From NCBI GenBank assembly GCA_025174535.1, contig JALBUN010000004.1:186001-250000 (forward strand): a stretch of 64,000 bases of DNA. The letters are read 5' to 3'. Made by a program: the position numbers and the translations under genes. Below the pieces are notes generated by a model. That model saw only the letters and a program-made list of their open reading frames with translations, made no database searches and was not told the DNA's origin. Every line of letters begins with the position of its first letter. Within the stretch, counting starts at the first letter, position 1. Source of the stretch: Cantharellus purpuraceus (Eukaryota; Basidiomycota; Agaricomycetes; Cantharellales; Hydnaceae). This document shows, piece by piece, positions 102-42,965 of the stretch.

Positions 102-685
102 TGTTATGACTATATTCATTAACGTCCAGATCCCCATCCGATCCACTCAGATCCCCACGCATATGAAATCTATACTCCATTTGGAAACCGCCATCTCCAT
201 CTACCTGTCCAATTGTCACCGCTGATTCCACCCATCCGTCTCCGGTTCCGATTGATGCATCAGTATCACCATAGGAACCTGGACACCCGTCCCCATTGGA
301 CTCAGACATACTCATGTAAGGCCGTCGGCCTTGGAGACCCATCACCAGAGTAATTATTATTAGATTTCAAAAATGTATTAAAGTTGCCTGACTGGGGACT
401 TCATTCCCCAGTTCGAATATCGAATCATGCCTAGTTCCTAAGTCTGATCCTAACTCTCTAAGTCATACTCCATCTCCAAAATCTCAGACACCGGTATTAG
501 TGAGGGCGCAGCACATAAGCTGAAGCCAAGTCTGTCCCGACCCATGACGTGCTCCGACTCCGACTCGACCTCCAACCCAACCTCCAACCCAACCTCCAAC
601 CCAACCTCCAACCCAACCTCCAACCCAACCTCCAACCCAAACTCTGACCCAAACTCTGACCCCCAATCGGACCTAGTGCATAACA
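102..685 (+). repeat. 5' LTR of element A
   Basis: This 584-bp direct repeat starts TGTTATG and ends TAACA; its partner is 8,061-8,612. The length difference comes mainly from a 12-bp tandem repeat near the 3' end. The target duplication CTTTG precedes it. The same LTR family recurs at 33,492-34,011, 42,439-42,965, 23,238-24,866 (split) and as relics at 24,868-25,061 and 29,068-29,551. Confidence 0.93.
568..639 (+). repeat. 12-bp tandem repeat in the LTR
   Basis: About six copies of ACCTCCAACCCA are followed by two degenerate copies. The 3' LTR of the same element (8,531-8,578) has about four copies, and the LTRs of B have fewer and more diverged ones. The 12-bp unit is read in frame as Thr-Ser-Asn-Pro in the frame that leads into gag. 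It is a fast-evolving minisatellite inside a regulatory repeat. Confidence 0.85.
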
Positions 686-717
686 GTATATTCAAACTAC
701 CATACTCACTCCTACCA

Positions 718-1860
718 ATGCCACGATCCACTGCCAATTCTGAACATGCACGAACCGTCGAGGTGCCCCCTCCCAGCATCAACACCATCCCTGAGGTCAT
801 CGAAGAACCAACGGACCACATAGAGGCCGTCAATGAAGAAGATGACACCCTGCCCTCTCCAAATCTGGCACAAGCCATCTCCCTGCTCACCAGCAGCATC
901 CATAACCCACAAGCCCCTAAGTCCCAGACCAAGGTCTGAGAACCTGACCCCTTCGACGGCTCCAATCCGCAAAAGCTCCAGCTGTTCTTGGTGCAATGCT
1001 GGTTGAACTTCTGCGACCGCCCCGACGCATTCACATCCAATCAGGCGAAGGTCACCTTCGCCATGTCCTATCTCAAGGGCACTGCACTGGACTACTTTGA
1101 GCCAGTGCTCATGGACGACTCCAATGACCCAATATGGTCAGAGGACTACTCCGACTTCATCTCCAAACTTCAGACCAATTTTGGTCCTTACAACCCTGAG
1201 GCCGATGCCAAGAATGAACTCAATCGACTTTGGATGAAGGAAAATCACAAAATCGCAAAATACATTGTGAGTTTCCAGCAGCTAGCCCCGAAAATCCAAT
1301 GGGGCGACGCTGCACTCCAACGCCAATTTTACGTTGGACTCCCATCCTGCATCAAGGACGAGATATCACACGTCGGTAAACCAGATACTTTGGTTAACCT
1401 CCGCAAGCTCACCCAATCCATCGATGCCCGTTATTGGGAATGTCAATCCGAGGTCTCCCATGAAAATTTGGCTAACAACAAATCGGACAAATCATCGGAC
1501 AAGACCCCAAAGTCCAACAAAGGGTCCGATAAGAGGACCACCGCCAACTCAGGCCAGAAGTCGAACACTGGTAATGCTGCCGCTTCCAGTTCTGGTCAGA
1601 ACAATTCCGGCACCAGCAATAACTCCGGAGCTTGCAAGAGTACTCCAGACCTCTCCACCAAGCTGGGGAAGGATGGAAAACTTACCCAGCAGGAACGCCA
1701 GCGCCGCATGGACAACAACCTCTGTCTGTTCTGTGGAAAGCCTGGCCACCAAGCCAAGGATTGCAACAAGGCAACCTCATCTGCAGCAAAGGCAAAAGGC
1801 CGTGCCACCAATGCCACGACGGACAAGTCCAACACAAAAACAATGGACCCAAAAAAATAG
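718..1860 (+). pseudogene. gag: gag of element A (one internal stop)
   Basis: This encodes the capsid/nucleocapsid protein of the element. The likely start is ATG 718, which opens MPRSTANSE; B has the matching ATG, though followed there by a stop. The frame is broken by TGA at 937-939, then runs open to TAG 1,858-1,860. The middle is a retrotransposon capsid region, followed by a Ser/Asn/Lys-rich linker. Near the C-terminus a CCHC zinc knuckle reads CLFCGKPGHQAKDC (CX2CX4HX4C), which binds RNA. The stop at 937 lies where B has an arginine codon (CGA to TGA), so the protein is split here but recognisable throughout. Confidence 0.88.
1851..1857 (+). promoter_or_regulatory. Candidate -1 ribosomal frameshift site
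   Basis: Seven A residues (A-AAA-AAA in the gag frame) stand directly before the gag stop TAG. The pol frame lies at -1 relative to gag and continues through this point as KKIVSSP. The same arrangement occurs in B (41,291-41,298, eight bases) and H (20,936-20,942). A slip of one base back on this heptamer would produce Gag-Pol. No stimulatory structure was assessed. Confidence 0.6.
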
Positions 1861-4800
1861 TAAGCAGTCCTATAGCCTCCGTACAGGCTGAGGGCTGCGT
1901 TGGTACTCCCCGTACGACAAACAAGGTCCACCTGAACGCATCTGCTCTTTCCCACTCTGACTCCCTTACCCTCCTCGTCTACTCCGACTCCATTTCCAAT
2001 ACCGCTATTCAAGTGTTAATTGACTCCAGTTCTACTCACTGTTTCCTCAATTCCTCTTTTTCTGATTTACATAAACTCCATACATACACCATAACTCTGA
2101 TACCACTCTGATTATTTGATGGCACTACTAATGCTGTTATTTCATGAGCTATAGATCTGTCTATCCGTTTTTCTGTTGGAGAAATCCAGAACCTTACATT
2201 CTATGTTACTCCGCTTGACTCCAGCTGTTCTGTGGTTCTCGGACATAACTGGCTCACCCGCTACAATCTGTTGATTGACTGGGCACTGGGCCATATCACA
2301 TTCCGTTCCCCAGTACAGGCTGTGTCATCCCTGACGTCACCAGCAACTTCAGGTGTGAAATTATCTTCTGCCTCCACTGACTCCACTCCGATAGATACTC
2401 CGTCTGCCCCGCCGTTTATATCACTGGTGGATGCTATGGTCTTTGCCAGACTAAGCAAACTGGATGGTTCCCACACATTCCAGGTCCACCTCTCCGATCT
2501 GATATTCCTCGCTGCTCGTTCTGCCGATCAACTCCACTGGATCTATCTATGGTCCCTAATGTGTTCAGCAAGTCTAAAGCTGACTCCCTAGCAGAACACC
2601 GACCATATGATCTCAAGATCGAACTAGATGACAACTCCACCCCTCCGCTTGGCCCTATCTACTCGCTATCCCAAAAAGAGCTACTGGCTCTCCGAACATT
2701 CATAGATGAGAACTTGGCTACGGGCTTCATCCGCCCATCCCTATCTCCTCATGGAGCACCGGTCCTATTTGTCTGTAAAAAGGACGGATCACTCCATCTA
2801 TGTGTTGACTTCCGTGGACTCAACAAGATCACCAAGAAAGACCAATACCCAATACCCTGCACCGCGGACCTACTTGAGAGTCCTCGAAAGGCTAAGATCT
2901 ATTCCAAAATAGATCTCCGACATGCCTACCATCTAGTCCACATCTGAGAAGGCAACGAATGGAAAATGACCTTCCGCACATGATATGGATCTTTCGAGTG
3001 GTGTGTCATGCCCTTCGGTCTAACCAATGCTCTGGCTGCCTTCCAGAGGTTCATGAATGATACCTTCGCCAACCTCCTCGATGTGACTGTCCTCGTTTAC
3101 TTAGACGACATTTTGGTATATTTGGACAATGAAGAAGAACATTGGACACATGTCCGAGAGGTACTCCGACGCCTCTGAAAACATGGCCTCTTCGCCTGCA
3201 CTGACAAATGCGAATTCCACTCCGACTTGGTTGAATACCTAGGCTATATCCTCTCCCTGGCAGGACTGACAATGTCCAATGACAAAATCAAAGCTATACA
3301 GGAATGGCCGGAACCCTGGAAAGTCAAGGACATACAGTCCTTCCTAGGGTTTGCCAACTTCTACCGCCGCTTCATTCACGGCTACTCTGATATCACCGTT
3401 CCACTCACCCAACTCACTAGGAAGGACGCTTGTTCGGAATCATGTCAGTATACAATATTCTGATGTATAGGAGATATACATCAGGATTTCAATGATACAT
3501 AAAGCTAGGGAGTTACAATTTGGATATCTTAAAAGATTTCGGATGTGTGAAATTTTCATAAATATAAACATATTTTCTATATTTTAATAAACTTTAAAAG
3601 ATAAGATATTTGGTTGAGATGAACATAATTATTTACATGGATATAATAGGAATGTATATATGAATATAATTGGTATTATATAGGGTATTTAGATATACAA
3701 ATACCAGGTGGGGATTAAAGATAGTTCAAATTATGTTACAAGTATTGTATAAGAAAGAATCAATGATATTTGGATGTTCCCTCAAGAGAGTTGCCACCAC
3801 TAAATCAGGAGAAAAAGAATTATTTTTGAGAATTATGCCAAAATATCAAAATATGTTTTAATCTAGTATATTGTGTAAAATTTGAGAATCATGTTGAAAT
3901 ATGAAAATAAGTTTGAATTGAAGTGTATTGTATAAAATTTGAGGAAAATAGGTTGTACATACGTATTTGTTGTATTTCTGAACAAGCGTCAAGGGTATCC
4001 AATGGAATTTCACTGATGAATGTAGACAGAGCTTTGAGACCTTGAAAAAGGCCTTTACTTCCGCTCCGATACTGACTCATTGGGTTTCAGATGTTCCTAT
4101 CCTATTAGAGACTGACGCCTCTGACTATGCACTAGCTGCGATCCTGTCCATCATCTCTTTGGACGATGGACAAGTCCATCCAATCGCTTTTCACTCGTGT
4201 ACATTTACGCCCCCCGAACTGAACTATGACGTCCATGACAAAGAGCTCCTTGCCATATATGAAGCCTTCCGGATATGGAGACACTACCTCGAAGGTCCCT
4301 CCGATCCGGTGGATGTCATAACTGACTACAAGAACTTGGAATACTTCTCCACAATGAAACTGCTCACCTGGAGACAAGTCCGATGGTCCGAATACCTATC
4401 TCAGTTCAATCTCATTATCTGTTTCTGTCCAGGTCGACTGGGAGCAAAGCCTGACACTTTAACTAGATGATGGGACGTCTACCCTAAAGAGGGAAATAGC
4501 GACTATGCCACTGTAAACCCACACAACTTTTGACCTGTGTTTACTAACGAGCAGCTGGCATCATCCCTACGAGCATCCACCCTCATAACTCCCACCCTCT
4601 GAGCTGTCACCATTATGGACATCGACCAACTCCGCTCTGACATCCGCTCATCACTCCGATCCGATCCTGTTGCAGTTAAACACTTGGATGACCCTTCCGA
4701 TCCGAAATGGTCACTTGACCCCAAAGGACACCTCTGACACAACAACCGGATATACGTCCCCGATGCCAACGGTCTCCAACTCCAAGTTTTGCAGTATTAT

Positions 4801-6087
4801 CATGATCACCTGATCTCGGGCCATTTTGGGCAAAATTGCACACAAGGATTAATCTGATGAGACTATGTATGGCCAAAAATGCGGGAATACATTCAACACT
4901 ACTGTAACTCCTGCACCACATGTATGCACTCAAAATTGCAAAGGCACAAACCCTACGGAACACTTAAGCAACTTCCGGTCCCGGAGCAACCATGGAACTC
5001 CATCTCCATGAATTTCATAGAGAAGCTCCCCCCATCGCTCAGATATGATACCATACTCGTGATTGTCGACAGGTTCACCAAACAGTCACTATTCATTCCG
5101 ACGCATGACACCATCACCTCTGCCTTGCTAGCTAAATTGTTCGTTCTCCATGTATTCTCTAAACACGGAGTCCCATTGCATGTCACATCCAATCGGGGCT
5201 TGGAGTTCATGTCCTCCTTCTTCTGCACATTAGGAAAGGCTCTCGACATGAAGCTTCATTTCACCTCCGGATACCACCCTGAAGGAGACAGACAAACAGA
5301 ACGAATGAATCAGTCCCTGGAACAATATCTCTGAATCTATTGTAACTATCAACAAGACAACTGGGCTGATCTACTTCCAATAGCAGAGTTTGCCTACAAC
5401 AATGCTCTGAACGCGACTACTGGAGTCTCTCCGTTCTTTGCTAATAAAGGCTACCATCCAAACATCTCTGTCCACCCTGAGAAAGAACTTGCCTCCACCA
5501 AAGCCCACCAATTTGTAACTGACCTCGATCAACTACACCAACATCTCCAAGAAACCATCTCCAATGCCCAGAAACAATATCAAGTCTCTGCAGACCGACA
5601 CCACATTCCGGCTCCAGACCTGCAAATCAGAGACAAAGTATTCGTTAAGGCCGAACACTTCCAGACCACCCGTCCATCAAAGAAACTCTCCGAGAAATAC
5701 TTAGGTCCTTATGAGGTCATTGCTCATGCAGGCAGCAGGCCCTTCACCCTCCGCCTCCCGGACCACTTCCGAGCAGTTCATCCAGTCTTCCATATATCAA
5801 TGCTTGAACCTGCTACTACGAACAAGATCTCCAGTCGCACGCAACCCCCACCTCCCCCAATCATCATCAAAGGAGACAATGAATATGAGATATCTGAGAT
5901 CCTGGACTTGAAGATTGACCATCAATACAAGTGCAAGCTCCAGTACTTAGTCAAATGGGCTGGATATGAAGGCACCGATGAAGAATCCTCATGGATCTCC
6001 ACATCTGAACTCAATCATGCATCCGAATCCATCTCTGACTTTCACTCCACTTATCCAGACAAACCTGGCCCCCTTATGAATCTTTAA
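1861..6087 (+). pseudogene. pol: pol of element A: PR-RT-RH-IN-chromodomain
   Basis: This is the polyprotein of a chromovirus, read in pieces. The protease motif is at about 2,010-2,045, where catalytic DSG is changed to DSS. The reverse transcriptase (about 2,640-3,420) has YLDD in [14 protein letters not shown] interrupts at 3,425-3,990. RNase H (about 3,994-4,470) has ETDASDYA. The integrase (about 4,800-5,750) has a CNSCTTC zinc-finger half. Its first catalytic Asp is Asn (MNFIEK) and the second is Asn (TSNRG); only the Glu remains (QTERMNQ). The chromodomain (about 5,870-6,060) has YLVKWAGY and a matching C-terminal helix; in other chromoviruses it guides integration to heterochromatin. 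TGA stops at 2,945, 2,981, 3,176, about 4,854-4,859 and 5,332 stand where B or H has CGA. Confidence 0.9.
3425..3990. mobile_element. 566-bp MITE inside element A pol
   Basis: This very AT-rich insertion has terminal inverted repeats beginning GACGCTTGTTC on the left and its complement on the right. It is flanked by AAG on both sides (3,422-3,424 and 3,991-3,993). B (about 39,710-39,725) and H (about 19,360-19,375) show the uninterrupted target. It contains no credible coding region, so it is a non-autonomous DNA element. The 3-bp duplication (4 bp if the boundary is drawn one base inward) leaves the superfamily undecided; PIF/Harbinger-like is possible. Confidence 0.85.
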
Positions 6088-6235
6088 GTTTGATTACTAA
6101 TGCTAATTCTATTATTTTGCATCATCATTTTATTACAAGTCAAGGGAAATTACAAGCCTGCCCAAAAAGCTCCAAAGGAATCACTCTGCCTCATTTTTCT
6201 CTGCTCTGAAATTTATAATCATTTTCATTTCTATT

Positions 6236-7944
6236 TTATACATCGTGTTTCCTTTTTCCCTTCCCCTTATCTACCTCAGGCTCCGTCTCCGACGCCATCT
6301 CTGACTCATCATCACTCTCTACATCTGACACCCAATCTTTCTCATCCCCCATGTCTGAATCCTCGTCCAAAGGGGCCATGAACTTCCGCAACTGATGTAA
6401 CTTGGCTGTCCGCCGACCCTCCAGAACCTCCTTCCGTTTCATCATCTTCACCAAGTCCACTAGCAACCCCTCCGTCTGCCAGAGGTGCTCCAACTGCAGG
6501 TTAACCAGCCGGATAAGCTGGCCCATGGTACTATTGGGCGCAGAGACATGCCCCATACCTGCACCAGTCATTGCCCCTTCCGATCCAACACCGCTATCCC
6601 TGGCTGCCACAGCACCTGTCTCTGTCTGCCACTTTTTGGTCGGACGACCTTCCAACTCTTTCTCTGCCCCTCCTTGTACCACTAGTCGGGGCTTGACGCT
6701 CCGACTCTGGGGATCAAACTTTCCATCAATCCTACACCCTCCTTTCCGACCCCAACAATGATCACAGGACCAAAGGCGATGAGTGGGGCCAGTAGGCCAC
6801 ATGCACTCCACACCCGCATCATGACACAAGTCGCAAGTTACACTGGGCCTGCCAAATGGCTCCATTGGAGCCAGAGCCTTGGGTGGTCCACCCCTTCTTG
6901 CTGCAGCCTCCAAATGTTCCCTCTCCTCCTCCTTGTCCTGCTGTTCCACTGCTGCCTTCTCCATCTCACGCTTGTGAAGCTGGATCGCCGACCTAGCGAC
7001 ACACAGCTCCTTCTTACAGGTCGCCAAAAAATGCGACTCTCCACCTTGCACCATATGACCCTCCGGTCCACCTCCCACTTCTCCATATCAGCACTCGGGT
7101 ATGCCTTCAATGAAAAGACCACAACGTCGAGATTCTTCTTGGTGGTAGCGGCATAGAGCTCCGCTCTTTTGCGAGCCTCGACCATGGCTACCCAAGCCAC
7201 CTCTTCGTAACGATTTGAAGTTGGATCCGGCTCCACATCCGTCCCGACGTCCATACCCACCTCGGGCTCCGCATTTGCGTTGAGCTCCATATTGGCATCT
7301 GGATCCGCCTCCACCTCCGCTCTCTCTGCCTCCGCCGCTTCATCTTCCTCAGCTGCACCCAACCCAAATAATGGCCGTACCCGTGGACGTAACGGCGAGT
7401 CAACTGCAGTGACAGTTGTTGGGCGAGTTGTCTCCATCCACGTAATGGAGATGATGGCGACCTCAGGGGTCCCTGTCCATATTGGCACACTCGGACTTCC
7501 TGGGTGGCTGGTTCCCCCTGCCCCGGTCACCTCCTCCTCTACCTCCATGGCGGCCTCTAGCTCATGCGCCTGCTCCTCCACTTCCTTCAGTCTCGCGGCC
7601 TCCATTGCGGCCGCAAGTTCCTTTACCCTGCAAGCTCTCTCGGCCTTTGCCTCCTCCTCCTTCCGTCTCCGTTCCGTCTCCACCACCTCTTTCCGCCTCT
7701 GCTCCTCCTCCTTCGGTCTCTATTCCGCCTCCTCCTCCTCCTTGTGTCTCCGTTCCACCTCCTCCTCCTCCTTCCGTCTCCATTCCACCTCCTCCTCCTC
7801 CTTCCATCTCCACTCCGCTTCCTCCTCTTTCCGTTTCCGCTCCTCTTCCTCTTCCTTCTGTTGGGTCAAGAGCAACTGCTCAAGCTTGGCCATGCTCATG
7901 CTTGCCAAAGGGTTTGACATCGTTGAGGATAAGACCTCAATCAT
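6236..7944 (-). pseudogene. Antisense accessory ORF of element A, Zn2Cys6-like
   Basis: The coding strand is opposite to gag-pol, between the pol stop and the 3' LTR. The N-terminus starts MIEVLSSTMSNPLASM at 7,944. It is followed by a long Glu/Lys/Arg-rich heptad-like stretch (likely coiled coil), acidic and Pro/Thr-rich parts, a second charged helix, then six cysteines spaced CX2CX6CX12CX2CX6C. After a second helical segment near LVNLQLEHLW comes an acidic tail ending in a basic cluster (GKGKRKHDV), a possible nuclear signal. The cysteine spacing fits the fungal Zn2Cys6 pattern, but basic residues between the cysteines are fewer than in Gal4-type factors. The reading frame shifts at least once (7,686-6,838 and 7,078-6,236 overlap) and there is a stop near 7,720. 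The copy in B is at 34,131-35,682. The function is unknown; a DNA-binding or nucleoprotein role is inference. Confidence 0.7.
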
Positions 7945-8046
7945 GCCCTCCTTTTATATGTCTCCAGACCCCCAATATAACTCCGACTGTGCCCAACCAT
8001 CTCACCTATTCAATCCATGGACATGAGGTCTCAGGGGCTCAGCCTT

Positions 8047-8060
8047 AAATGGGGAGATAC
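8047..8060 (+). other. Polypurine tract of element A
   Basis: A purine-rich run (AAATGGGGAGATAC) directly precedes the 3' LTR and is conserved, inverted, beside the 3' LTR of B (34,012-34,025). It is the expected plus-strand primer site. The primer-binding site after the 5' LTR could not be matched to a tRNA by eye. Confidence 0.6.
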
Positions 8061-8612
8061 TGTTATGACTATATTCATTAACGTCCAGATCCCCATCCGA
8101 TCCACTCAGATCCCCATGCATATGAAATCTATACTCCATTTGGAAACCGCCGTCTCCATCTACCTGTCCAATTGTCACCGCCGATTCCGCCCATCCGTCT
8201 CTGGTTCCGATTGATGCATCAGTATCACCATAGGAACCCAGACACCTGTCCCTGTTGGACTCAGACATACTCATGTAAGGCCGTCGGCCTTGGAGACCCA
8301 TCACCAGAGTAATTATTATTAGATTTCAAAAATATGTATTTAAGTTGCCTGACTGGGGACTTCATTCCCCAGTTCGAATATCGAATCATGCCTAGTTCCT
8401 AAGTCCAATCCTAATTCTCTAAGTCGTACTCCATCTCCGAAATCTCGGACACCGGTATTAGTGAGGGCGCAGCACATAAGCTGAAGCCAAGTCCATCCCA
8501 ACCCCCACGACATGCTCTGACTCCGACTCGACCTCCAACCCAACCTCCAACCCAACCTCCAACCCAACCTCCAACCCAACCTCCGACCCCCAATTGGACC
8601 TAGTGCGTAACA
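8061..8612 (+). repeat. 3' LTR of element A
   Basis: This 552-bp LTR runs TGTTATGAC to GCGTAACA and is followed by the target duplication CTTTG (8,613-8,617). It differs from the 5' LTR by scattered substitutions and by about two fewer copies of the 12-bp repeat, so the element is not recent. Confidence 0.93.
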
Positions 8613-9652
8613 CTTTGACTTTAGAGCATTGGCTGAAAACTTGTTGATTGATTCCAAAGGTGAAAACTAGCACCCTTTTATATACAAATCCCCAGGGCAC
8701 AACAACACAATATGAGGAGCAAATGATGTGATATGATGCAAGAAATGCTGATCAAGCCAGCTGAGAAAGCATGTGAAGTTGAACTACTAATGGGGAAATC
8801 ATGGAGAAATGAAACAACAGATAGGGGTAATCTTTGTAAGAATAGGAGGTGATGAGTAATAAAAGAACCAAAAATAGAACAAGGATGAGTAAGTCATGTA
8901 TGAATGAATTAAAAGATGAAACAGGGGTGAGTCATATAAAAGAACAATAGAAACATCCACCAATACCATCTTCCCTATGGCTCCGAAGGTAAATCGACCC
9001 TGAGTCACATGAGGACTTCAGTCAGCATCCACAACAAATACTCCTCATTGTCTTAGTGATCTGTCTTCATATGGTATCCCATTCCAAGGGTATTTGGTCC
9101 CTTTGCCTGACATGAGTCGTATTGAAGTGGGAGGATAGGTTGGCGACGGTGACTGAAATTCTACCTCATGTTCAACTCTTCTATCCGTGTTACGATATAG
9201 AGGCAAAATGCTGAGGAATGTATATGGTTCAATGGAATCGTGAAAGAATATAGGATTGCCAATGGCATAAGAGAGACATGGTGGGGATCTTGGATGTTGA
9301 AAGAGTTTTGGAAGTATTTTGACACGTGGAGGTGGCTTAACATGCCTGTGGAGCTCGGCGTATTTTTGATAGTCCTCTGTGTCCAGAGACCAGTGTGACA
9401 TATTATTAGAAGAGATGTTGGAGAGGGGAATAGAATTGGAAGCCATATGAATGATGATGAAAGGATCGGTGTGAATAGAAGGCTGATAATGATCGATGGC
9501 GATGAAACACAAGTGATGATCGATGGCTAGAATTAGAGACTGAGGTGGAGAGGGAGTTGTGGCGCTATTTAAAAGTTTGATACAAAAAGACGCTGGCGGA
9601 GTTGGACTGTCAGAGTTGTTTGTTATACGTCCTTGATGTGTCCTGGCCCGTC
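8613..9652 (-). mobile_element. G1 LTR-like unit, part 2
   Basis: This is the continuation of the unit begun at 1-101, interrupted by element A. It aligns with G2 (35,872-37,286) throughout and ends ...CCCGTCA at 9,652, after which the integrase region of H resumes with GCATG. Read on the minus strand it starts TGACGGG, has a TATA-like tttaaata about 115 bp upstream of a small ORF (9,045-9,446), and then a long AT-rich part. It inserted into the chromodomain region of H. Confidence 0.82.
9045..9446 (-). CDS. Small accessory ORF in G1
   Basis: A 133-residue ORF starts at ATG 9,446 (MASNSIPLSN); a further ATG upstream is not conserved in G2, so this start is preferred. It has no signal peptide or membrane segment. 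Recognisable parts are WSLDTED near residue 22, a PPPRV segment, and YAIGNPIFF followed by PYTF near residues 60-75. These line up, in order, with the accessory ORF of chromovirus E (16,193-16,630). G2 carries a 109-residue version and 30,480-30,578 a fragment. No function is known to me. The conserved order of motifs across different element families suggests selection at some time. Confidence 0.5.
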   Translation of the reverse strand: MASNSIPLSNISSNNMSHWSLDTEDYQKYAELHRHVKPPPRVKILPKLFQHPRSPPCLSYAIGNPIFFHDSIEPYTFLSILPLYRNTDRRVEHEVEFQSPSPTYPPTSIRLMSGKGTKYPWNGIPYEDRSLRQ

Positions 9653-10010
9653 AGCATGCGACTGGAGATCTCGTTTGTAGTAGCAGGTTTGAGCATTGAT
9701 ATATGGAAGACCAGGTGAACTGCTCAGAAGTGGTCTGGGAGGCAGAGGGTGAAGGACCTGCTGCCTGTGCAAGCAATGACCTCATAAGGACCTAAGTATT
9801 TCTCAGAGAGTTTCTTTGATGGACAGGTGGTCCGGAAGTGTTTGGCCTTAATGAATACTTTGTCTCCGATTTGCAGGTCTGGAGCCAGAATGCGGTGTCA
9901 GTCCGCAGAGACTTGGTATTGTTTCTGAGCATCAGAGATGGTTTCTTGGAGATGTTGGTGTAGTTGGTTGAGGTCGGTTGTGAATTGGCAGGCTTTGGTG
10001 GAGGCAAGTT
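9653..10010 (-). pseudogene. H integrase C-terminal region
   Basis: The minus strand reads the integrase C-terminus (LHQHLQETISDAQKQYQVSAD, then the region matching GDKVFVKAKHF). It corresponds to 37,500-37,850 in B. The chromodomain that should follow is cut off by G1. On the upstream side it joins 17,876 across the inserted F1. Confidence 0.8.
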
Positions 10011-10617
10011 TGTATGGGAACCACCTTTTCCCTATCAAATTCCATTTATGCAGCACCAATGTGCTATTCTTTGCTTTTTCATTCCTAAATATCAGCATAT
10101 ATTTGATGCTTGTACCTGGAATGGACTTATTCAAATATTCTCTATTTTTCCATATTTTTTCGGGAATATTCCATGCAGAACTCGGCTCAGAATCATTTAT
10201 TTCTGCTGTGCTACAGTTGTGGACCCATAGGTGCCCACAAACCTTCACGCAGCCGGCTCTCCCCTTTTGGACCAGGCATTTGGCCTGAATTCAAGCTCAG
10301 ATGTCTCTGATCAATAAATATTCTGTAACTTAACAACCACAGCCTCTCAGGGCACTATTTTCCATGCAGATCATCACCTGAGATCTGGCTATCCATGGCT
10401 GTCCAAACCAGTGCAGAAAACAGGGTGGACACCCTTCTTTTTGCCTGATCAGTGCCTAGTTCAGGGATCAGATCAGCTGATGGGTGATCAAATCAGGTGA
10501 TTGCCTTGGAATATTCTACCCCTTTCCATAACATTCTAGCTGTTTCCCTCTATTATTAGATAGAACTTTCCAGAACCATTATTCAGCTCCTGATCAGTGT
10601 TAGTGCTGTGATCAGAT

Positions 10618-10979
10618 TGTCAGGGTTCAAATAAGTCATATTCTATTTTTAGTATTTTCTCTTGACACCCCTATCAGCGCAGCCTGTCAGGGTGCGTCTC
10701 CCCTATTTCATTGCCCCTATCACTTCCCCTATCTTTCCTCCCCTATCTTGGTTCTCCTATCCGTCTCCATCATTTAGTATAAAGACTCGCCTTGGTGCAG
10801 TGTGATCCCCTCAGCTTGATCTCTGAGGATATCCGCTGTACCAGGTAAGTCCCATGTATTTATCAGAAACAGCTGTATAGACTGAGGATATCCGCTGTAC
10901 CAGCTGGCATTATTTCTTATCGGCTCTCACTTATTGAGTATCTTGTTGTTGTGGCCTCGTCATCAGCGTCGCCCTCACA
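10618..10979 (+). repeat. 5' LTR of element E
   Basis: This 362-bp LTR runs TGTCAGGG...CCCTCACA. It contains a TATA box (TATAAAG, 10,788-10,794). Downstream of it, a 22-bp sequence occurs twice about 60 bp apart, each copy ending in GCTGTACCAG; the first copy is followed by GTAAGT, a perfect 5' splice-donor consensus (about 10,844-10,849). C/T-rich CCCCTAT repeats lie upstream of the TATA box. Confidence 0.95.
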
Positions 10980-11047
10980 GAAGATCAAGCTCATAAGACG
11001 ACCCCACACCTCATAACACTTTCCCTATTAACTACTTCACCGATACC

Positions 11048-15100: not shown

Positions 15101-16086
15101 TCAATAAGCTTTTGGGGATCAAGGTTGCAGCATCCACAGCATATCATCCACAAACCGATGGTCAGACGGAAAGGGTCAATCAAGAAATTGAACAATACTT
15201 GAGGCTTTTCGTCAATCAGCGCCAGGATGACTGGATTGAGTGGGTTCCTCTTGCCGAATTCACATACAACAACTGCATCCACTCCTCCACGCAATCAACC
15301 CCCTTCATGCTTGATACAGGCCAACACCCAAGGCTTGGGTTAGAGCCAATCCGAGAGACACGACTTGAAGCACTGGAAGAATTCACTGAGCGTATGGAGA
15401 CAGCCACCACTGAGGCTCGCTCCGCCCTGGAAAAGGCAGCAGATGATATGGCACGATTCTATGATGCCCATCGGCAAGCAGCCCCAGTATACAAACTTGG
15501 TGACAAGGTCTGGCTCAATGCACAAAATATCACCACCACCCGTCCAACCAAGAAACTTGATCACAAATGGTTAGGACCGTATGTGATTAATAAAGTGGTC
15601 TCACGAAATGCCTATGGCCTACGACTTCCCCAAATCTTTGGCCGCACTCATCCAGTGTTCTCTGTTGTCTTACTCCGTCCTTATGAAAAGGATCCCATCC
15701 CTGAACGCCAGTCATCTCCTCCACCACCTCCAGTCATTCGAGATGGAGTACAGGAATATGAAGTTGAGAAGATCCTTGACAGCAGAGTTTTCCGAGGAAG
15801 ACTGGAATACCTGGTGCGTTGGAAGGGCTATGGAGCTGCTGACGACCTCTGGATCCCAGCTAAGGATGCCAGTGGGGCTAGAAGGCGCATTGCAGACTTC
15901 CATCAGGAAAATCCTGAAGCCCCAAGGCGTATTTCGGCAGCCACCTATGCGGCTCTTCCCTTCAGACGCTTTGAGAACTTCACAGAACCTCCCAAACAGG
16001 TCCTCTTTGATTGGACAGCTGGCAGGAACCCAACACGTGGTATTGGACACATTTCAGAGCCGCAGAATAGGCACAGTGAAGCTTAG
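12187..16086 (+). CDS. pol: pol of element E, one in-frame TGA
   Basis: The frame is open from before 12,187 (GTG; first ATG 12,196) to 16,086 apart from TGA at 14,569-14,571, between RNase H and integrase. Order: protease (LLDSGATGMF); reverse transcriptase with KLDIRWGY and the catalytic box FMDD in place of the commoner YxDD; RNase H (ETDASAYATG); integrase with an HHCC zinc finger (HITGH...CDLCNRTK), catalytic Asp in SVDLIVE, Asp in SDRGTQF and Glu in QTERVNQ; and a chromodomain (EYEVEKIL...YLVRWKGYG). All catalytic residues are present. The TGA could be a CGA lost by C-to-T change, or read through; the first is more likely given the decay of neighbours. ATG 14,644 downstream need not be a start. 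Confidence 0.92.
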
Positions 16087-16125
16087 CGCTCACCAAATTC
16101 ATCCATGCCGAAATTCCACTAACTG

Positions 16126-16133: not shown

Positions 16134-16192
16134 CCAGTGAATCCACTTCCCCTTCCTCAGTAAAACCATCATCGTTCACTACCCAACCCACC

Positions 16193-33491: not shown

Positions 33492-34011
33492 TGTTATGCA
33501 CTAGGTCCGATTGGGGGTCAGAGATTGGGTTGGAGATTGGGTTGGAGGTTGGGTTGGAGTCGGAGCACATTGTGGGGTCGGGACGGACTTGGCTTCAGCT
33601 TATGTGCTGCGCCCTCACTAATACCAGTGTCCGAGATTTCGGAGATGGAGTATGACTTAGAGAGTTAGGATCGGACTTAGGAACTAGGTGTGATTCGGTA
33701 TTCAAACTGGGGAATGAAGTCCCCAGTTGGGCAACTTAAATACATATTTTGAAATCTAATAATAATTACTCCAGTGATGGGTCTCTGAGGCCGACGGCCT
33801 TACATGAGTATGTCTGAGTCCAACGGGGACAGATGTCTGGGTTCCTATGGTGATGCTGATGCATCAATCGGAACTGGAGACGGATGGGCAGAATCAGTGG
33901 TGACGATCAGACAGGGAGATGGCGGTTTCCAAATGGAGTATAGATTTCATATGCGCGGGGATCTGAGTGGATTGGATGGGGATCTGGACGTTAATGAATA
34001 TAGTCATAACA
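33492..34011 (-). repeat. 3' LTR of element B
   Basis: A 520-bp LTR, plus-strand ends TGTTATGCAC and GTCATAACA. The polypurine tract is at 34,012-34,025 (complement of GGGGAGATAC). It contains about three degenerate copies of the 12-bp repeat. Confidence 0.9.
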
Positions 34012-34130
34012 GTATCTCTCCCCATTTAAGGCCGAGCCCCTGAGGCCTCATGTCTGTGGATTGAATAGGTGAGATGGTTGGGCGCAGTTGGAGTTATACT
34101 GGGGGTCTGGAGACATATGAAAGGAGGGGC

Positions 34131-35682
34131 ATGATTGAGGTCTTATCCTCAACGATGTCAAACCCTTTGGCAAGCATGAGCGTGGCCAAGCTTGAGCAGC
34201 TGCTCTTGGCCCAACAGAAAGAAGAGGAGGAGGAGTGGAAACGGAAAGAGGAAGAGGAAGCAGAACGGAGACAGAAGGAGGAGGAGGCAAAAGCCGAGAG
34301 AGCTCGCAGGGTAAAAGAACTTGTGGCAGCGATGGAGGCCGCAAGACTGAAGGAAGTGGATGGAGGAGCAGGTGCACGAGCTAGAGGCCACCATGGAGGT
34401 AGAGGAGGAGGTGACCGGGGCAGGGGGAACCAGCCACCCAGGAAGTCCGAGTGTGCCAATACGGACAGGGACCCTGGAAGTCACCATTATTTCCATTACG
34501 TGGTTGGAGACAACTCGCCCGACAACTGTCACTGTGGTTGACTTGCCATTACGTCCGTGGGTATGGCCATTGTTTGGGTTGGGTGTGGCTGAGGAAGATG
34601 AAGCGGCGGAGGCAGAGAGCGGAGGTGGAGGTGGACCCTGATGCCAATATGGAGCTCAATGCAAATGCGGAACCCAAGGTGGGTGTGGATGTCAGAACGG
34701 ATGCAGAGCCGGATCCGACTTTGAATTGTTACAAGGAAATGGCTTGGGTAGCTGCAGTCGAGGCTCGCAAAAGGGTGGAGCTCTATGCCACGACCACCAA
34801 GAAAAACCTCGACATCGTGGTCTTTTCATTGAAGGTGTACCCGAGTGCTGATATGGAGAAGCGGATCGGAGGGTCATATGGTGTAAGGCAGAGAGCCGCG
34901 TTTTGGCAACCCGTAAGAAGGAGCTGCGTGTTGCTAGGTCGGTGATCCAGCTTCACAAGCGCGAGATGGAGAAGGCAGCAGCAGAACAGCAGGACAAGGA
35001 GGAGGAGAGGGAACGCTTGGAGGCCACAGCGAGAAGGGGCGGACCACCCAAGGCTCTGGCTGCAACGGAGCCATTTGGCAGACCCAGCGTAACTTGTGAC
35101 TTATGTCGTGATGTGGGTGTGGAGTGCATGTGGCCTACCGGCCCAACTCACCGACTTCGGTCCTGCGATCGTTGTCGGGGTCGGAAAGGAGGGTGTAGGA
35201 TCAATGGAAAGTTTGAACCCCAGAGTCGGAGCGTCAAGCCCCGACTAGTGGTACAAGGAGGGGCAGAGAAAGAATTGGAAGGTTGTCCGACCAAAAAGAG
35301 GCAGACGGAGACGGGTGCTGTGGCAGCCGGGGGTAGTGGCATCGGATCAGAAGGGGCAATGACTGGTGCAGGTACTGGGTGTGTCTCTGTGCCCAATAGC
35401 ACCGTGGGCCAGCTTATCAGGCTGGTTAACCTGCAGTTGGAGCACCTCTGGCGGAAGGAGGGGTTGCTAGTGGACTTGGTGAAAATGATGAAACGGAAGG
35501 AGGTTCTGGAGGGCCGTCGGACAGCCAAGTTACGTCGGTTGTGGAAGTTCATGGCCCCATTGGACGAGGATTTGGACATGGGAGATGAGAAGGATTGGGT
35601 GTCAGATGTAGAGAGTGATGAGGAGTCGGAGACAGAGCCTGAGGTAGATAAGGGAAAGGGGAAAAGGAAACGTGATGTATAA
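34131..35682 (+). pseudogene. Antisense accessory ORF of element B, Zn2Cys6-like
   Basis: This is the B counterpart of 6,236-7,944, again on the strand opposite to gag-pol and between pol and the 3' LTR. It starts MIEVLSSTMSNPLASM at 34,131. Order: Glu/Arg-rich coiled region, acidic stretch with repeated DAEPD-like runs, a second charged helix, six cysteines as CDLCRDVGVEC...CDRCRGRKGGC (CX2CX6CX12CX2CX6C), a helix with LVNLQLEHLW, an acidic segment and a terminal basic cluster KGKGKRKRDV. Two shifts (near 34,350 and 34,630) and one near 34,900 break the frame; the last part (34,903-35,682, 259 residues) is open and includes the whole cysteine cluster. Of the two copies it has the better basic context. 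Zn2Cys6 is inferred from spacing alone. Confidence 0.72.
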
Positions 35683-35871
35683 AATAAAAATGAAAATGAT
35701 TATAAATTTTGGAGCGGAGAAAAATGAGGCGGAGTGATTCCTTTGGAGCTTTTTGGGCAGGCATGTAGTTTCCCTTGACTTGTAATAAAATGGTGATGCG
35801 AAATAATAGAATTAGCATTAGTAATCGAACTTAAAGATTCATAAGGGGGCCAGGTTTGTCTGGATAAGCGG

Positions 35872-37286
35872 TGTCAGTTTGCTTATGGAATAGATCCTAT
35901 AAGCCTGCGCGCAACAGTCCTAGCAAACAGATGGTGTGTAACGCAGTTGTTCAGCACTCCAAAGATCAATCAGGTGTAGGGGGCGGCACTGAGTAACAGG
36001 GAAGTGGGATAGTGCTCTGTGGTTGGATGAGGATGGGAGCTAAAGGTCGGTCCCGATGGCTGATCGTGCTCTGTGACTGGATGACAATGCGGAGCCCGGT
36101 TGGGAGGTACGCGAAAGCTGGTTTCAGGAGAAGCAACCTCTCGGTGGCAGAGGGAAATCTGATCGTTGAACCAAGGTGTTTTACCTCAGTGTAGAGATGA
36201 TGGATTGTGATGTAGAGCGTAGTGCGTAGACTTAGAGCGTGGACTTTGACTTTAGAGCGTTGGCTGAAAACTTGTTGATTGATTCCAAAGGCGAAAACTA
36301 GCGCCCTTTTATATACAAATTCCCAGGGCACAACAACACAATATGAGGAGCAAATGATGTGATATGATGCAAGAAATGCTGATCAAGCCAGCTGACGAAG
36401 CGTGTGAAGTTGAACTACTAATGGGGAAATCATGGAGAAATGAAACAACAGATAGGGGTAATCTTTGTAAGAATAGGGGGTGATGAGTAATAAAAGAACC
36501 AAAAATAGAACAAGGATGAGTAAGTGAATGAATTAAAAGATGAAACAGGGGTGAGTCATATAAAAGAACAATAGAAACATCCACCAATACCATCTTCCAT
36601 ACGGCTCCGAAGGTTAATTGACCCTGAGTCACATGAGGACTTCAGTCAGCATCCACAACAAATACTCCTTATTGTCTTAGTGATCCATCTCCATATGGTA
36701 TCCCATTCCAAGAGTATTCGGTCCCTTTGCCTGACACGATGTAACCTGAGTCAGATTGAAGTGGGAGGATAGGTCAGCGATGGCGACTGAAATTCTACCT
36801 CACATTCAACTCTTCTATCCGTGTTATGATATAGAGGTGAAATGTCGAGGAATGTATATGGTTCAACGGAATTGTGAAAGAATATGGGATCGCCAATGGC
36901 ATAAGAGAGACATGGTGGGGATCTTGGACGTTGAAAGAGTTTTGGAAGTATTTTGACACGTGGAGGTGGCTTAACATGCCTGTGGAGCTCGGCATATTTT
37001 TGATAGTCCTCTGTGTCCAGAGACCAGTGTGATGTATTATTAGAAGTGATATTGGAGAGAGGAATAGAATGGGAAGCCATGTGAATGATGATGAAAGGAT
37101 TGGTGTGAATAGAAGGCTGATAATGATTGATGGCGATGAAACACGAGTGACGATCGATGGCTAGAATTAGAGACTGAGGTGGAGAGGGAGTTGCAGCGCT
37201 ATTGAAAAGTTGATATGAAAAGACGCTGGCGGAGTTGGACTGTCAGAGTGGTTCGATATGCATCCTCGATGCGTCCTGGCTCGTCA
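35872..37286 (-). mobile_element. G2: complete 1.4-kb LTR-like unit
   Basis: G2 is a 1,415-bp unit with plus-strand ends TGTCAG...CTCGTCA, inserted in the chromodomain of B with GCGG on both sides (35,868-35,871 and 37,287-37,290). Element A gives the uninterrupted protein sequence. TG...CA ends with a 4-bp duplication suggest a solo LTR or a small non-autonomous retroelement. Read on the minus strand it contains a promoter-like region, a leader and the small ORF 36,751-37,080. G1 carries the same unit, and 36,244-36,248 shows the empty site of A. Confidence 0.83.
36751..37080 (-). CDS. Small accessory ORF in G2
   Basis: A 109-residue ORF starting MASHSIPLSN, colinear with the G1 ORF but ending earlier at TGA where G1 has a CGA codon. 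Motifs HWSLDTED, PPPRVKILPK, YAIGDPIFF and EPYTF are kept. It has no membrane segment. For its relation to the ORF of E see 16,193-16,630. The longer G1 form is probably closer to the ancestral protein. Confidence 0.5.
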   Translation of the reverse strand: MASHSIPLSNITSNNTSHWSLDTEDYQKYAELHRHVKPPPRVKILPKLFQRPRSPPCLSYAIGDPIFFHNSVEPYTFLDISPLYHNTDRRVECEVEFQSPSLTYPPTSI

Positions 37287-38344
37287 GCGGAGTGAAAGTT
37301 GGAGACAGATTCAGATGCATGATAGAGTTTGGACGTGGAGATCCATGAGGACTCTTCATCGGTGCCTTCGTACCCAGTCCATTTGACTAAGTACTGGAGC
37401 TTGCACTTGTATCAACGGTCGATCTTCAAGTCCAGGATCTCAGAGATCTCATATTCGTTGTCTCCTTTGATGATGATCAGGGGAGGTGGGGGTTGCGTGC
37501 GACCAGAGATCTTGTTCATAGTAGCAGGTTCAAGCATTGATATATGGAAGACTGGATGAACTGCTCAGAAGTGGTCCGGGAGGCAGAGGGTGAAGGACCT
37601 GCTGCCTGCGCGAGCAATGACCTCATAAGGACCTAAGTACTTCTCGGAGAGTTTCTTCGATGGATGGGTGGTCCGGAAGTGTTTGGCCTTAACGAATACT
37701 TTGTCTCCGATTTGCAGGTCCAGAGCCGGAATGTGGCGTCGGTCTGTGGAGACTTGATATTGTTTCTGGGCATCGGAAATGGTCTCTCGGAGATGTTGGT
37801 GTAGTTGATTGAGGTCAGTTATGAATTGGCGGGCTTTGGTGGAGGCAAGTTCTTTCTCAGGGTGGATGGAGATGTTTGGATGGTAGTCTTTATTAGCAAA
37901 GAACAGAGAGATGCCGGTAGTCGTGTTCGGAGCGTTGTTGTAGGCAAACTCTGCAATCGGAAGTAGATCAGCCCAGTTGTCTTGTTGATAGTTACAATAG
38001 ATTCGGAGATATTGTTCCAGGGACTGATTCATTTGTTCCGTTTGTCCGTCTCCTTCAGGATGGTATCCAGAGGTGAAGTGAAGTTTCATGTCAAGAGCCT
38101 TTCCTAGTGTGCAGAAGAAGGAGGACACAAACTCCAAGCCCTGATCGGATGTGACATGTGATGGGACTCCATGTTTAGAGAATACGTGGAGAACGAACCA
38201 ATTTGGCTAGCGAGGCAGAGGTGATGGTGTCATGCGTCGGAATGAATAGTGACTGTTTGGTGAACCTGTCCACAATCACAAGTATGGTGTTGTATCCGAG
38301 TGATGGGGGGAGCTTCTCTATGAAATCCATGGAGATGGAGTTCC

Positions 38345-38706
38345 TGTGAGGGCGACGCTGATGACAAGGCCACAACAACAAGATACTCAATAAGTGAGAG
38401 CCGATAAGAAATAATGCCAGCTGGTACAGCGGATATCCTCAGTCTATACAGCTGTTTCTGATAAATACATGGGACTTACCTGGTACAGCGGATATCCTCA
38501 GAGATCAAGCTGAGGGGATCACACTGCACCAAGGCGAGTCTTTATACTAAATGATGGAGACAGATAGGAGAACCAAGATAGGGGAGGAAGGATAGGGAAA
38601 GTGATAGGGGCAATGAAATAGGGGAGATGCACCCTGACAGGCTGTGCTGATAGGGGTGTCAAGAGAAAATACTAAAAATAGAATATGACTTATTTGAACC
38701 CTGACA
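38345..38706 (-). mobile_element. Solo LTR of the E family
   Basis: This is a 362-bp reverse-oriented copy of the E LTR, flanked by GTTCC (38,340-38,344 and 38,707-38,711). It interrupts the integrase of B. Compared with E it has a handful of differences, mostly at CpG. Recombination between two LTRs evidently removed the internal region. Confidence 0.95.
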
Positions 38707-41287
38707 GTTCCATGGTTGCTCTGGGATCAGAAGTTGCTTAAGCGTTCTGTAGGGTTTGTGCCTTTGTGATTTTTGAGTGCATACATGTGGTGCAGGAGTT
38801 ACAGTAGTGTTGAATGTATTCCCGCATTTTTGGCCATACATAGTCTCATTGGATTAATCCTTGTGTGCGATTTTGCCCGAAGTGGCCAGAGATTGGGTGA
38901 TCATGATAATACTGCAAAACTCGGAGTCGGAGGTTGTTGGCATCGGGGATGTATATCCAGTTGTTGTGTCGGAGGTGTCCTTTGGGGTCAAGTGACCACT
39001 TCGGATCAGAAGGGTTGTCCAAGTGTTTAACTGCAACAGGATCAGATTGGAGTGATGAGCAGATGTCGGAGTGGAGTTGGTTGATGTCCATAATGGTGAC
39101 AGCTCGGAGAGTGGGAGTCATGAGGGTGGATGCTCATAGGGACAATGCCAGCTGCTCATTAGTGAACACAGGATGAAAGTTGTGTGGGTTTACAGTGGTG
39201 TAGTCGCTATTCCCCTCTTTAGGGTAGACGTCCCAGCATCTAGTTAACACATCAGGCTTTGCTCTGAGTTGACCAGGACGGAAACGGATAATGAGATTGA
39301 ACTGAGATAGGTATTCGGACCATCGGACTTGTCTCTGGGTGAGTAGTTTCGTTGTGGAGAAGTATTCCAAGTTCTTGTGGTCAGTTATGACATCCACCGG
39401 ATTGGAGGGACCTTCAAGGTAGTGTCTCCATATCCGGAAGGCTTCATATATGGCAAGGAGTTCTTTGTCATGGACGTCATAGTTCAGTTTGGGGGGTGTA
39501 AATGTATGCGAGTGAAAAGCAATCGGGTGGACTTGTCCGTTGTCCGGAGAGATGATGGACAGGATCGCAGCAAGTGCATAGTCAGAGGTGTCGGTCTCTA
39601 ATAGGATAGGAACGTCTGGAACCCAATGAGTCAGTATTGGAGCAGAAGTAAAGGCCTTCTTCAAGGTCTCAAAGCTCTGTCTACATTCATCAGTGAAATT
39701 CCATTGGGTACCCTTCCTAGTGAGTCGGGTGAGCAGAATGGTGATATCGGAGTAGCCATGAATGAAGTGGCAGTAGAAGTTGGCAAACCCTAGGAAGGAC
39801 TGTACGTCCTTGATTTTCTGGGGTTCCGGCCATTCCTGTATGGCTTTGATTTTGTCATCAGACATTGTCAATCCTGCTGGGGAGAGGATATAGCCTAGGT
39901 ATTCAACTGAGTCGGAGTGGAATTCACATTTGTCAGCGCGGGCGAAGAGGCCATGCTTTCGGAGACGTCAGAGTACCTCTTGGACATGTGTCCAATGTTC
40001 TTCTTCATTGTCCAAATATACCAGAATGTCGTCTAAGTAAATGAGGACAGTCACATCGAGGAGGTCGGCAAAGGTATCATTCATGAACCTCTGGAAGGTG
40101 GCCAGCGCATTGGTTAGTCCGAAGGGCATGACGCACCACTCGAAAGATCCATATCGTGTGTGGAAGGTCATTTTCCATTCATCACCTTCTCGGATGTGGA
40201 CTAGATGGTAGGCATGTTGGAGATCTATTTTGGAATAGATCTTAGCCTTTCGAGGACTCTCGAGTAGGTCTGCGGTGCGGGGTATCAGGTATCGGTCTTT
40301 CTTGGTGATCTTGTTGAGTCCATGGAAGTCAACACATAGATGGAGTGATCCGTCTTTTTTTCAGACAAATAGGACCAGAGCTCCATGAGGAGATAGGGAT
40401 GGGCAGATGAAGCCCGTGGCCAAGTTCTCGTCTATGAATGTTCGGAGAGCCAGTAGCTCTTTTTGGGATAGCAAGTAAATAGGGCCAAGCAGAGGGGTGG
40501 AGTTGTCATCCAGTTCGATCTTGAGATTGTATGGTCGGTGTTCTGCTAGAGAGTTGGCTTTAGACTTGCTGAACACGTCAGCGAACTCATGATACTCCTT
40601 GGGAACCATAGAGAGGTCCGGTGGAGTTGATTGGGCAGAACAAGCAGCGAGGAATATCGGATTGGAGAGGTGGACCTGGAATGTGTGAGAACCATCCAGT
40701 TTGCTTAGTCTGGTGAAGACCATAGTGTCCACCATCGATATAAACAGAGGGGTAGACGGAGTATCTATTGGAGCGGAGTCAGCGGAGGCGGAAGATAATT
40801 TCACACCTATAGTTGCTGGTGACGTCGGGGATGACACAGCCTGTGCTGGAGAACGGAATGTGATATGGCCCAATGCCCAGTCAATCAACGGATTGTAGCG
40901 GGTGAGCCAGTTATGTCCGAGAACCACAGAACAGCTGGAGTCAAGTGGAGTAACATAGAATGTAAGGGTCTGGATTTCTCCAACAGAAAAACGGATAGAC
41001 AGATCTATAGCTCGTGAAATAACAGCATTAGTAGTGCCATCAAATAATCAGAGTGGTATCGGAGTTATGGTGTATGTATGGAGTTTATGTAAATCGGAAA
41101 AAAAGGAATCGAGGAAACAGTGAGTAGAACCAGAGTCAATTAACACTCGAATAGCACTATTGGGAATGGACGAGGAGGGTAAGGGAGTCGGAGTGGGAAA
41201 GAGCGGATGCATTCAGGCAGACCTCGTTTGTCGTATGGGGAGTACCAATGCAGCCCTCAGCCCGTATGGAGGCTATAGGACTGCTTA

Positions 41288-42361
41288 CTATTTTTTTTGG
41301 TCCATCGTGGCGTTGGCGGCACAGCCCTTTGCCTTTGCTGCAGACAAGGTTGCCTTGTTGCAATCCTTGGCTTGGTGACCAGGCTTTCCACAGAACAGAC
41401 AGAGGTTGTTGTCCATGTGGCGCTGGCGTTCCTGCTGGGTGATTTTTCTGTCCTTTCCCAGCTTGGTGGAGAGGTCCAGAGTACCCTTGCAAGCTCCAGA
41501 GTTATTGCTGGTGCCGGAATTGTTCTGACCGGAACTGGAAGCGGCAGCATTACCAGTGTTTGACTTCTGGCCTGAGTTGGTGGTGGCTCGCTTATCGGAC
41601 CCCTTGTTGGACTTTGGGGTCTTGTCCAATGATTTGTCCGATTTGTTGTTAGCCGAGTTCTCACAGGAGACCTCGGATTGACGTTCCCAATAATGGGCAT
41701 TGATGGATTGGGTGAGCTTGCGGAGGGTAGCCAAAGTATCCAGCTTACCGACGCGTGATATCTCGTCCTTGATGCGGGATGGGAGTCCGACGTAAAATTG
41801 GCGTTGGAGTGCAGCATCACCCCATTGAACTTTCGGAGCTAGCTGCTGGAAACTCACAATGTATTTTGCAATTTTGTGATTTTCCTTCATCCGAAGTCGA
41901 TCGAGTTCATTCTTGGCATCAGCCTCGGGGTTATAAGGACCAAAATTGGTCCAAAGTTTGGAGATGAAGTTGGAGTAGTCCTCTGACCATATCGGGTCAT
42001 CAGAGTCGTCCATGAGTGCTGGCTCAAAGTAGTCCAGTGTGGTGCCCTTGAGATAGGCCATGGTGAAGGTGACCTTTGCCTGATTGGATGTGAATGCATC
42101 GGGGCGGTTGTGGAAATTCAACTGGCATTGCACCAAGAACGGCTGGAGCCTTCGCGGATTGGAGCCATCGAATGGGTTGGGTTCTCGGACCTTGGTCCGG
42201 GCCTTAGGGGCTTGTGGGTTACGGATGCTGCTAGCGAGCAGGGAGATGGCTTGCACCAGATTTGGAGAGGGTGGGGTGTTGTCTTCTTCATTGACGGCCT
42301 CTATGTGGTCCATTGGTTCTTTGACGACCTCAGGAATGGTGTCGATGCTGGGGGCAGGCAC
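41288..42361 (-). CDS. gag: gag of element B
   Basis: A 357-residue open frame beginning MPAPSIDTIPE; the natural start is probably the upstream ATG matching A 718, now cut off by a CGA-to-TGA stop. It contains the capsid region (DPFDGSNP-like segment, YLKGTTLDYFEPAL) and the zinc knuckle CLFCGKPGHQAKDC. It ends at TAG (41,288-41,290), directly after the run of eight A on the coding strand. It is the best-preserved Gag of this family here. Confidence 0.85.
   Translation of the reverse strand: MPAPSIDTIPEVVKEPMDHIEAVNEEDNTPPSPNLVQAISLLASSIRNPQAPKARTKVREPNPFDGSNPRRLQPFLVQCQLNFHNRPDAFTSNQAKVTFTMAYLKGTTLDYFEPALMDDSDDPIWSEDYSNFISKLWTNFGPYNPEADAKNELDRLRMKENHKIAKYIVSFQQLAPKVQWGDAALQRQFYVGLPSRIKDEISRVGKLDTLATLRKLTQSINAHYWERQSEVSCENSANNKSDKSLDKTPKSNKGSDKRATTNSGQKSNTGNAAASSSGQNNSGTSNNSGACKGTLDLSTKLGKDRKITQQERQRHMDNNLCLFCGKPGHQAKDCNKATLSAAKAKGCAANATMDQKK
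41291..41298 (-). promoter_or_regulatory. Slippery A-run before the gag stop of B
   Basis: Eight A residues on the coding strand precede TAG, as at 1,851-1,857 in A. The pol frame is -1. The extra A compared with A and H adds one base to the run. Confidence 0.55.
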
Positions 42362-42438
42362 CTCGATGGTTCATGCATGTTCAGAATTGGCAGTGGATCG
42401 TGGCATTGGTAGGAGTGAGTGTGGCAGTTCGAATATAC

Positions 42439-42965
42439 TGTTATGCACTAGGTCCGATTGGGGGTCGGAGATTGGGTCAGAGTTCGGGTCAGAGGTTGGG
42501 TCAGAGTCAGAGCACGTCATGGGGGTCAGGACAGACTTGGCTTCACCTTATGTGCTGCGCCCTCACTAATACCAGTGTCCAAGATTTCGGAGACAGAGTA
42601 TGACTTAGAGAGTTAGGATCGGACTTAGGAACTAGGCGTGATTCGACATTCGAACTGGGGAATGAAGTCCCCAGTTGGGCAACTTAAATACATATTTTGA
42701 AATCTAATAATAATTACTCCGGTGATGGGTCTCTGAGGCCGACGGCCTCACATGAGTATGTCCGAGTCCAACGGGGACGGATGTCTGGGTTCCTATGGTG
42801 ATGATGATGCATCAATCAGAACCGGAGACAGATGGGTGGAATCAGCAGTGACGATCGGACAGGGAGATGGAGACGGCGGTTTCCAAATGGAGTATAGATT
42901 TCATATGTGCGGGGATCTGAGTGGATCGGACAGGGATCTGGATGTTAATGAATATAGTCATAACA
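42439..42965 (-). repeat. 5' LTR of element B
   Basis: A 527-bp LTR with plus-strand ends TGTTATGCAC and GTCATAACA, followed by the target duplication TGAAG. It is very similar to the 3' LTR but not identical; a tandem repeat and several CpG positions differ. Confidence 0.9.

Follow-up and report, generated by a model that had tools for sequence, protein, structure and literature searches.

An antisense accessory gene under purifying selection in a chromovirus family of Cantharellus purpuraceus encodes a six-cysteine protein without a named family

The window, a stretch of 64,000 nucleotides analysed here as part of the 40.15-Mb genome (50 contigs) of Cantharellus purpuraceus, holds two chromovirus insertions, A and B, that carry an antisense accessory gene; this gene is real, selected and of a known kind, and its product is a six-cysteine protein without a named family. 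Both elements were assigned to the chromoviruses because Pfam domains above the cut-off identified a gag (PF03732) with a zinc knuckle, an RNase H of the Ty3 type (PF17917) and, closing pol, a chromodomain (PF00385). Their parts are as follows.

102..8612, plus strand: element A, a chromovirus (Ty3/Gypsy) with an LTR pair and the target duplication CTTTG
988..1860, plus strand: gag of A with a zinc knuckle (PF03732, 36.4 bits; PF00098, 21.2 bits; both above the cut-off)
5338..6087, plus strand: C-terminal end of pol of A with a chromodomain (PF00385, 30.2 bits, cut-off 25.1)
6236..7944, minus strand: antisense gene of A with broken frames (open pieces 6236-7078 and 6838-7686)
6734..6835, minus strand: six-cysteine box of A, CX2CX6CX12CX2CX6C
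7651..7858, minus strand: 30-nt tandem array coding for charged repeats of the KEEEEAERRR type, seen as protein repeats in open copies
8061..8612, plus strand: 3' LTR of A
33492..42965, minus strand: element B, of the same family as A, with an LTR pair and the target duplication CTTCA
33492..34011, minus strand: 3' LTR of B
34131..35682, plus strand: antisense gene of B with an open C-terminal part, 34903-35682 (259 aa)
35095..35196, plus strand: six-cysteine box of B, CX2CX6CX12CX2CX6C

The two LTRs of an element are 94.7% identical in A (529 aligned bases) and 90.9% in B, the target duplications are 5 bp long (CTTTG for A, CTTCA for B), and the LTRs start with TGTTATGAC and end with TAACA where the end was read (3' LTR of A, both LTRs of B). 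The C-terminal end of pol of A (5338..6087) also matched PF24626 with 63.9 bits (cut-off 30). The locus of B (L001) gave no pol-end match; its antisense gene is apparently separated from pol by other DNA. The sequence-only reading had placed an antisense gene with decayed frames and the spacing CX2CX6CX12CX2CX6C between pol and the 3' LTR of A and B, and start codons, stops, LTRs, broken frames and cysteine boxes were confirmed in both copies. The gene is about 1.7 kb long and convergent with gag-pol; its start codon (7944 on the minus strand in A, 34131 on the plus strand in B; stops at 6236 and 35682) lies 117-120 bases from the 3' LTR, towards the interior of the element, and the C-terminal part of the gene of A (locus L005) is 86% identical to that of B. 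The LTR adjoining the gene was read directly in A, B and a further locus, L033, and because all three have in-frame stops between the LTR and the start codon, translation starts at this codon unless the transcript is spliced.

Other repeats were also seen in the window. A second LTR element at 10618-17045, with LTRs 99.7% identical over 362 bases, encodes a gag (PF03732) with a zinc knuckle, has sense frames 794 aa and 480 aa long, and has no antisense frame of at least 250 aa among the frames listed; it is probably a young insertion, from a family that lacks the antisense gene. Repeat fragments are common to the 9-10 kb region, the interior of B and the region at 45 kb (9110-10309, 36744-37794 and 44957-45256), with a pol-like peptide inside the frame at 9898-10248, and a different repetitive stretch at 30032-30382, translated in several of its frames, yields repeats rich in serine, proline or glycine/aspartate.

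The antisense gene is a trait of the family and is present in most copies of this chromovirus. A six-frame genome search gave at least 147 scored matches from 758 candidates, a lower bound; counted from a table transcribed by hand, 90 of the 147 are stop-free in the matched part, and 49 are stop-free and also belong to an open frame that reaches 500 aa or more, which does not in every case begin at the proper start. Two sets of loci were sampled, the 30 best matches to the pol end and the 30 best to the gene, so that the fetched copies, chosen by their similarity to the window's own proteins, are skewed to well-kept ones. The pol-sampled loci, among them A (L034) and the two near-duplicates L037 and L038 of a single copy, had an antisense-gene match in the same place on the opposite strand in 29 of 30 cases, several of them fragmented and one (L045) a remnant only. 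Conversely, the pol end or parts of it adjoin the gene on the other strand in 29 of the 30 gene-sampled loci, B being the exception. In five gene-sampled loci (L002, L003, L008, L025, L027) the frame stays open between the start region and the C-terminal part, and in four of the 30 it is unbroken from the start to the usual stop (557, 574, 585 and 565 aa); in L003 it continues beyond the usual stop. Gene and pol distances across 31 copies were correlated (Mantel r 0.533; 0 of 2000 shuffles as high); the gene has therefore been inherited with the element, together with its pol. The sequence-only reading had assigned the gene to the family as a once selected one and had named three findings that would speak against this view. 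Two of them do not hold, as the ORF is not restricted to the two window copies and the codon ratios given below are far from 1; as to the third, intact copies lacking the gene, the pol-sampled loci leave L055 as the only one with no match. At this locus the antisense-gene match is absent beside a stop-free pol end, possibly a loss variant or a later deletion.

The sequence of the antisense protein, above all its six-cysteine cluster, is under purifying selection, which agrees with the earlier proposal that the gene was once selected. When the 60 loci were restricted to those aligning as a single piece over at least 93%, 47 remained for the gene and 46 for pol, and 45 and 43 after two and three near-duplicates, respectively, were dropped. 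The pN/pS ratio of the gene was 0.305 over all changes, far from 1 (0.559 for transitions, 0.115 for transversions), and that of the pol end was close to it, at 0.212 (0.385 and 0.080, respectively). Transitions dominate the differences among copies, an excess that would fit cytosine-driven decay after insertion, and since this is expected of such decay the transversion ratio was taken as the cleaner figure. Overall, the coding frame had 0.27 stops per copy in the 45 copies compared to 2.9-14.0 in the other five frames, and was the lowest of the six by both ratios, the others ranging from 0.397 to 0.897 for all changes and from 0.42 to 4.65 for transversions; a chance open frame is rejected by these stop counts and codon ratios. 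It is barely conceivable that the antisense frame is the shadow of a gene on the sense strand: one opposite frame does have a lowish ratio (0.397 for all changes, 0.424 for transversions), but it contains 2.91 stops per copy against 0.27, and the mirror frame of pol itself, for all its 12.65 stops per copy, is equally lowered (0.246 and 0.226), which marks the lowish ratio as a mirror effect. Such a shadow is refuted by the sense strand itself, whose three frames hold 2.91, 5.51 and 6.60 stops per copy.

Similar evidence came from individual copies and from the spread of codon forms. The six pairs among four of the five start-open copies (L003, which passes the usual stop, was left out) differed by 94, 67, 86, 98, 96 and 94 amino-acid changes, fewer in every pair than the 123, 79, 125, 135, 109 and 130 changes of a neutral simulation. 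Stop-free outcomes occurred in 9, 61, 1, 10, 4 and 0 of 1000 simulations per pair, a rarity that is partly a matter of choice because the copies were picked as open; the amino-acid comparison is less affected by this. Among codons with two forms that differ at one site, forms seen once comprised 19 silent and 14 changing ones in the gene and 14 and 22 in pol, and forms seen in at least three copies comprised 29 and 10 in the gene and 33 and 19 in pol (forms seen twice were left out). All six cysteines were present in each of the 45 copies, compared to only 9 and 6 of the 45 for two other cysteines of the B sequence. It has been raised for plant elements (PMC7264820, section 8) that the RNA may have a role, and here too the antisense RNA could be the product, acting in silencing or anti-silencing with the frame incidental; given the strong constraint on amino acids and cysteines, and disfavoured as it is by the codon ratios, this explanation is very unlikely.

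At its N-terminus, the protein has a conserved start (MIEVLSSTMSNPLASM in most of the five open copies). A charged stretch and an acidic middle part come next and lead to a helix and the six-cysteine box; behind the box lie a stretch rich in Gly/Ser, another long helix and a tail that is first acidic and then basic. The charged stretch is the product of the 30-nt tandem array and varies from 62 to 101 aa across L002, L003, L008, L025 and L027 with the frame kept. In these five copies it contains 40-46% E, 29-38% K+R and 1-6% I/L/V/M/F, and E-K/R pairs at i,i+4 are in excess over shuffles. By this composition it looks more like a single alpha-helix, presumably of the ER/K class, than a coiled coil. 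The coiled-coil protein of the sequence-only reading therefore needs a different location: structure prediction gave two fairly confident helices, residues 2-45 and 167-224 of P0001, which flank the cysteines and are the better coiled-coil candidates, whereas the charged stretch resembles the ER/K type. The basic C-terminal tail (KGKGKRKR), also part of that reading, is present in the proteins of this genome but is not common to the distant homologs. A PDB sequence search to E 10 returned five matches, all on the charged stretch, the best to eIF3a (E 0.0052). The protein, judged by its sequence, matches no named family, as Pfam scans of the gene's proteins found no family above the cut-off.

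Relatives outside this genome were few. A protein search with the full-length protein found one (P0005) and an alignment search five (P0005, P0007, P0008, P0009 and P0010; 32-45% identity), while the protein search with the 259-aa piece of B found no relative. The distant relatives are JGI metagenome proteins only; none was found in viral contigs or in prokaryote contigs. In the window's genome, P0007 matched this family at 37-43% identity, with nothing closer among the 90 matches scored from 711 candidates, and because of this level of identity the metagenome relatives very probably come from other genomes. The six-cysteine box has identical spacing in four of the five; P0010 ends before the box.

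The pattern of the Zn2Cys6 zinc cluster is CX2CX6CX5-12CX2CX6-8C, and its spacing occurs in 45 of 45 copies and in all four homologs that reach the region. Beyond spacing, which was the basis on which the sequence-only reading had proposed it, the Zn2Cys6 identity found no support. The Gal4-type profile of fungal transcription factors (PF00172) gave 10.8 bits with the 259-residue part of B (cut-off 21), no match up to E 10 for A, P0003 and P0005, and no match up to E 0.01 for P0007 and P0008. Elsewhere in the window's genome the profile matches 19 places, whose translations are other sequences without the box of this gene, and the residues around the cysteines differ from those of the Gal4 type. 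We therefore use the label six-cysteine domain, because the PF00172 score is below the cut-off and the model of the cysteine region is unreliable (pLDDT below 50; a separate model of the region averages 43.9); the domain is probably metal-binding.

The order of the two halves of the domain was compared using position scores from real domains (9 first and 16 second halves, 15 of the latter distinct) taken from the 19 PF00172 places, the rest being cut or irregular. This comparison has limited power, as left-out real halves scored from 7.9 to 25.7 (first) and from -1.3 to 15.9 (second). The scores leaned to the swapped order in five of five own-genome sequences, themselves closely related, and the distant homologs leaned to the direct order in three of four cases and were level in one. 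Capture of a host zinc-cluster transcription factor would be consistent with the cysteine spacing and with the seemingly swapped halves in the own-genome sequences. However, the profile score stays at 10.8 against 21 bits in a genome where the same profile finds its 19 other places, the distant homologs do not lean to the swapped order, and every direct or swapped sum is below zero, which makes such a capture unlikely.

Botrytis cinerea is an ascomycete, and this host distinguishes its element Boty from the elements described here. By description, which is the level at which the two were compared, Boty and Boty-like elements are similar to them as fungal LTR elements with a chromodomain in gag-pol (PMC4227169, which mentions brtn) and an antisense gene, brtn, between pol and the 3' LTR (PMC7264820); the source for brtn is Zhao et al. 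2011, Virology, as cited in PMC7264820, PMC8365987 and PMC4227169. The sequence-only reading had named no described role of such Cys-rich proteins in retrotransposons; as a correction, antisense genes in LTR elements, including brtn, are in print (PMC7264820, PMC4227169). Accessory genes in this position are already known from Grande, RIRE2, Retand and Boty. Maize Grande, rice RIRE2 and Phaseolus PvRetro13 are plant elements whose antisense genes share their place and orientation with the one described here (PMC7264820), and for gene23 of Grande a nuclear location and a promoter of its own are described (PMC7264820, section 8). Retand, a plant element that is not a chromovirus, has antisense ORFs with a TRP28 domain (PF04195) in 97% of clusters and tandem repeats in about half, and DNA binding and a regulatory role have been proposed for its antisense proteins (PMC11963269); PF04195 had no match up to E 10 in the piece of B, A, P0003 or P0005, nor any in the other Pfam scans. 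Besides brtn, the titles and abstract openings listed from the open-licence literature gave no antisense or zinc-cluster gene for fungal, mushroom or basidiomycete LTR elements.

HBZ of HTLV-1 is a bZIP protein. It resembles the protein described here, by analogy, as an antisense protein of an LTR element, and its location is nuclear (PMC11963269). We propose, as a reading that could equally well prove right or wrong, that the fungal chromovirus uses its accessory gene as a nuclear regulator of the element. Antisense transcription would begin in or beside the 3' LTR, the protein would fold a metal-binding cluster, probably with two zincs, and the long helices flanking it would join the protein into dimers or larger assemblies. 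In the nucleus, it may bind nucleic acid and regulate LTR transcription or the handling of the element's RNA or DNA, in a manner perhaps similar to HBZ or to gene23 of Grande. A TATA-like site was found in A, not in B. In six LTR stretches, of which two were ended by position and not at the LTR end and one was truncated, we counted 15-21 CGG/CCG triplets where shuffles averaged 9.9-14.3; this is a weak excess, about 1 to 2.7 s.d. in LTR sequences that are related to each other, and CGG-N0-12-CCG occurred 0 or 1 times compared to 0.4-0.9 in shuffles.

An alternative explanation, possible but rather improbable, is that the selected protein is not a transcription regulator and acts inside the particle or as part of the pre-integration complex, as a chaperone, in nuclear import or as a target-site tether. 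Selection and the predicted helices are compatible with such a role, and, for proteins of this sort, PMC7264820 considers how the pre-integration complex enters the nucleus; however, the gag zinc knuckle and the chromodomain of the element could already serve these functions, and an antisense gene would be expressed separately from gag-pol. The proposal of a nuclear regulator can also be drawn more widely, though here we would be doubtful: fungal chromoviruses may encode an antisense, dimeric zinc-cluster DNA-binding protein, kept across species, that governs the element as HBZ governs HTLV, with a cluster that arose either independently of the Gal4 family or from that family, its halves swapped. 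For the biology of these elements, the finding provides a family within one genome, with at least 147 scored matches, a measured level of purifying selection and a six-cysteine box that does not vary, and with a defined cysteine domain in hand, the zinc content, DNA binding and location of the protein become questions for the bench.
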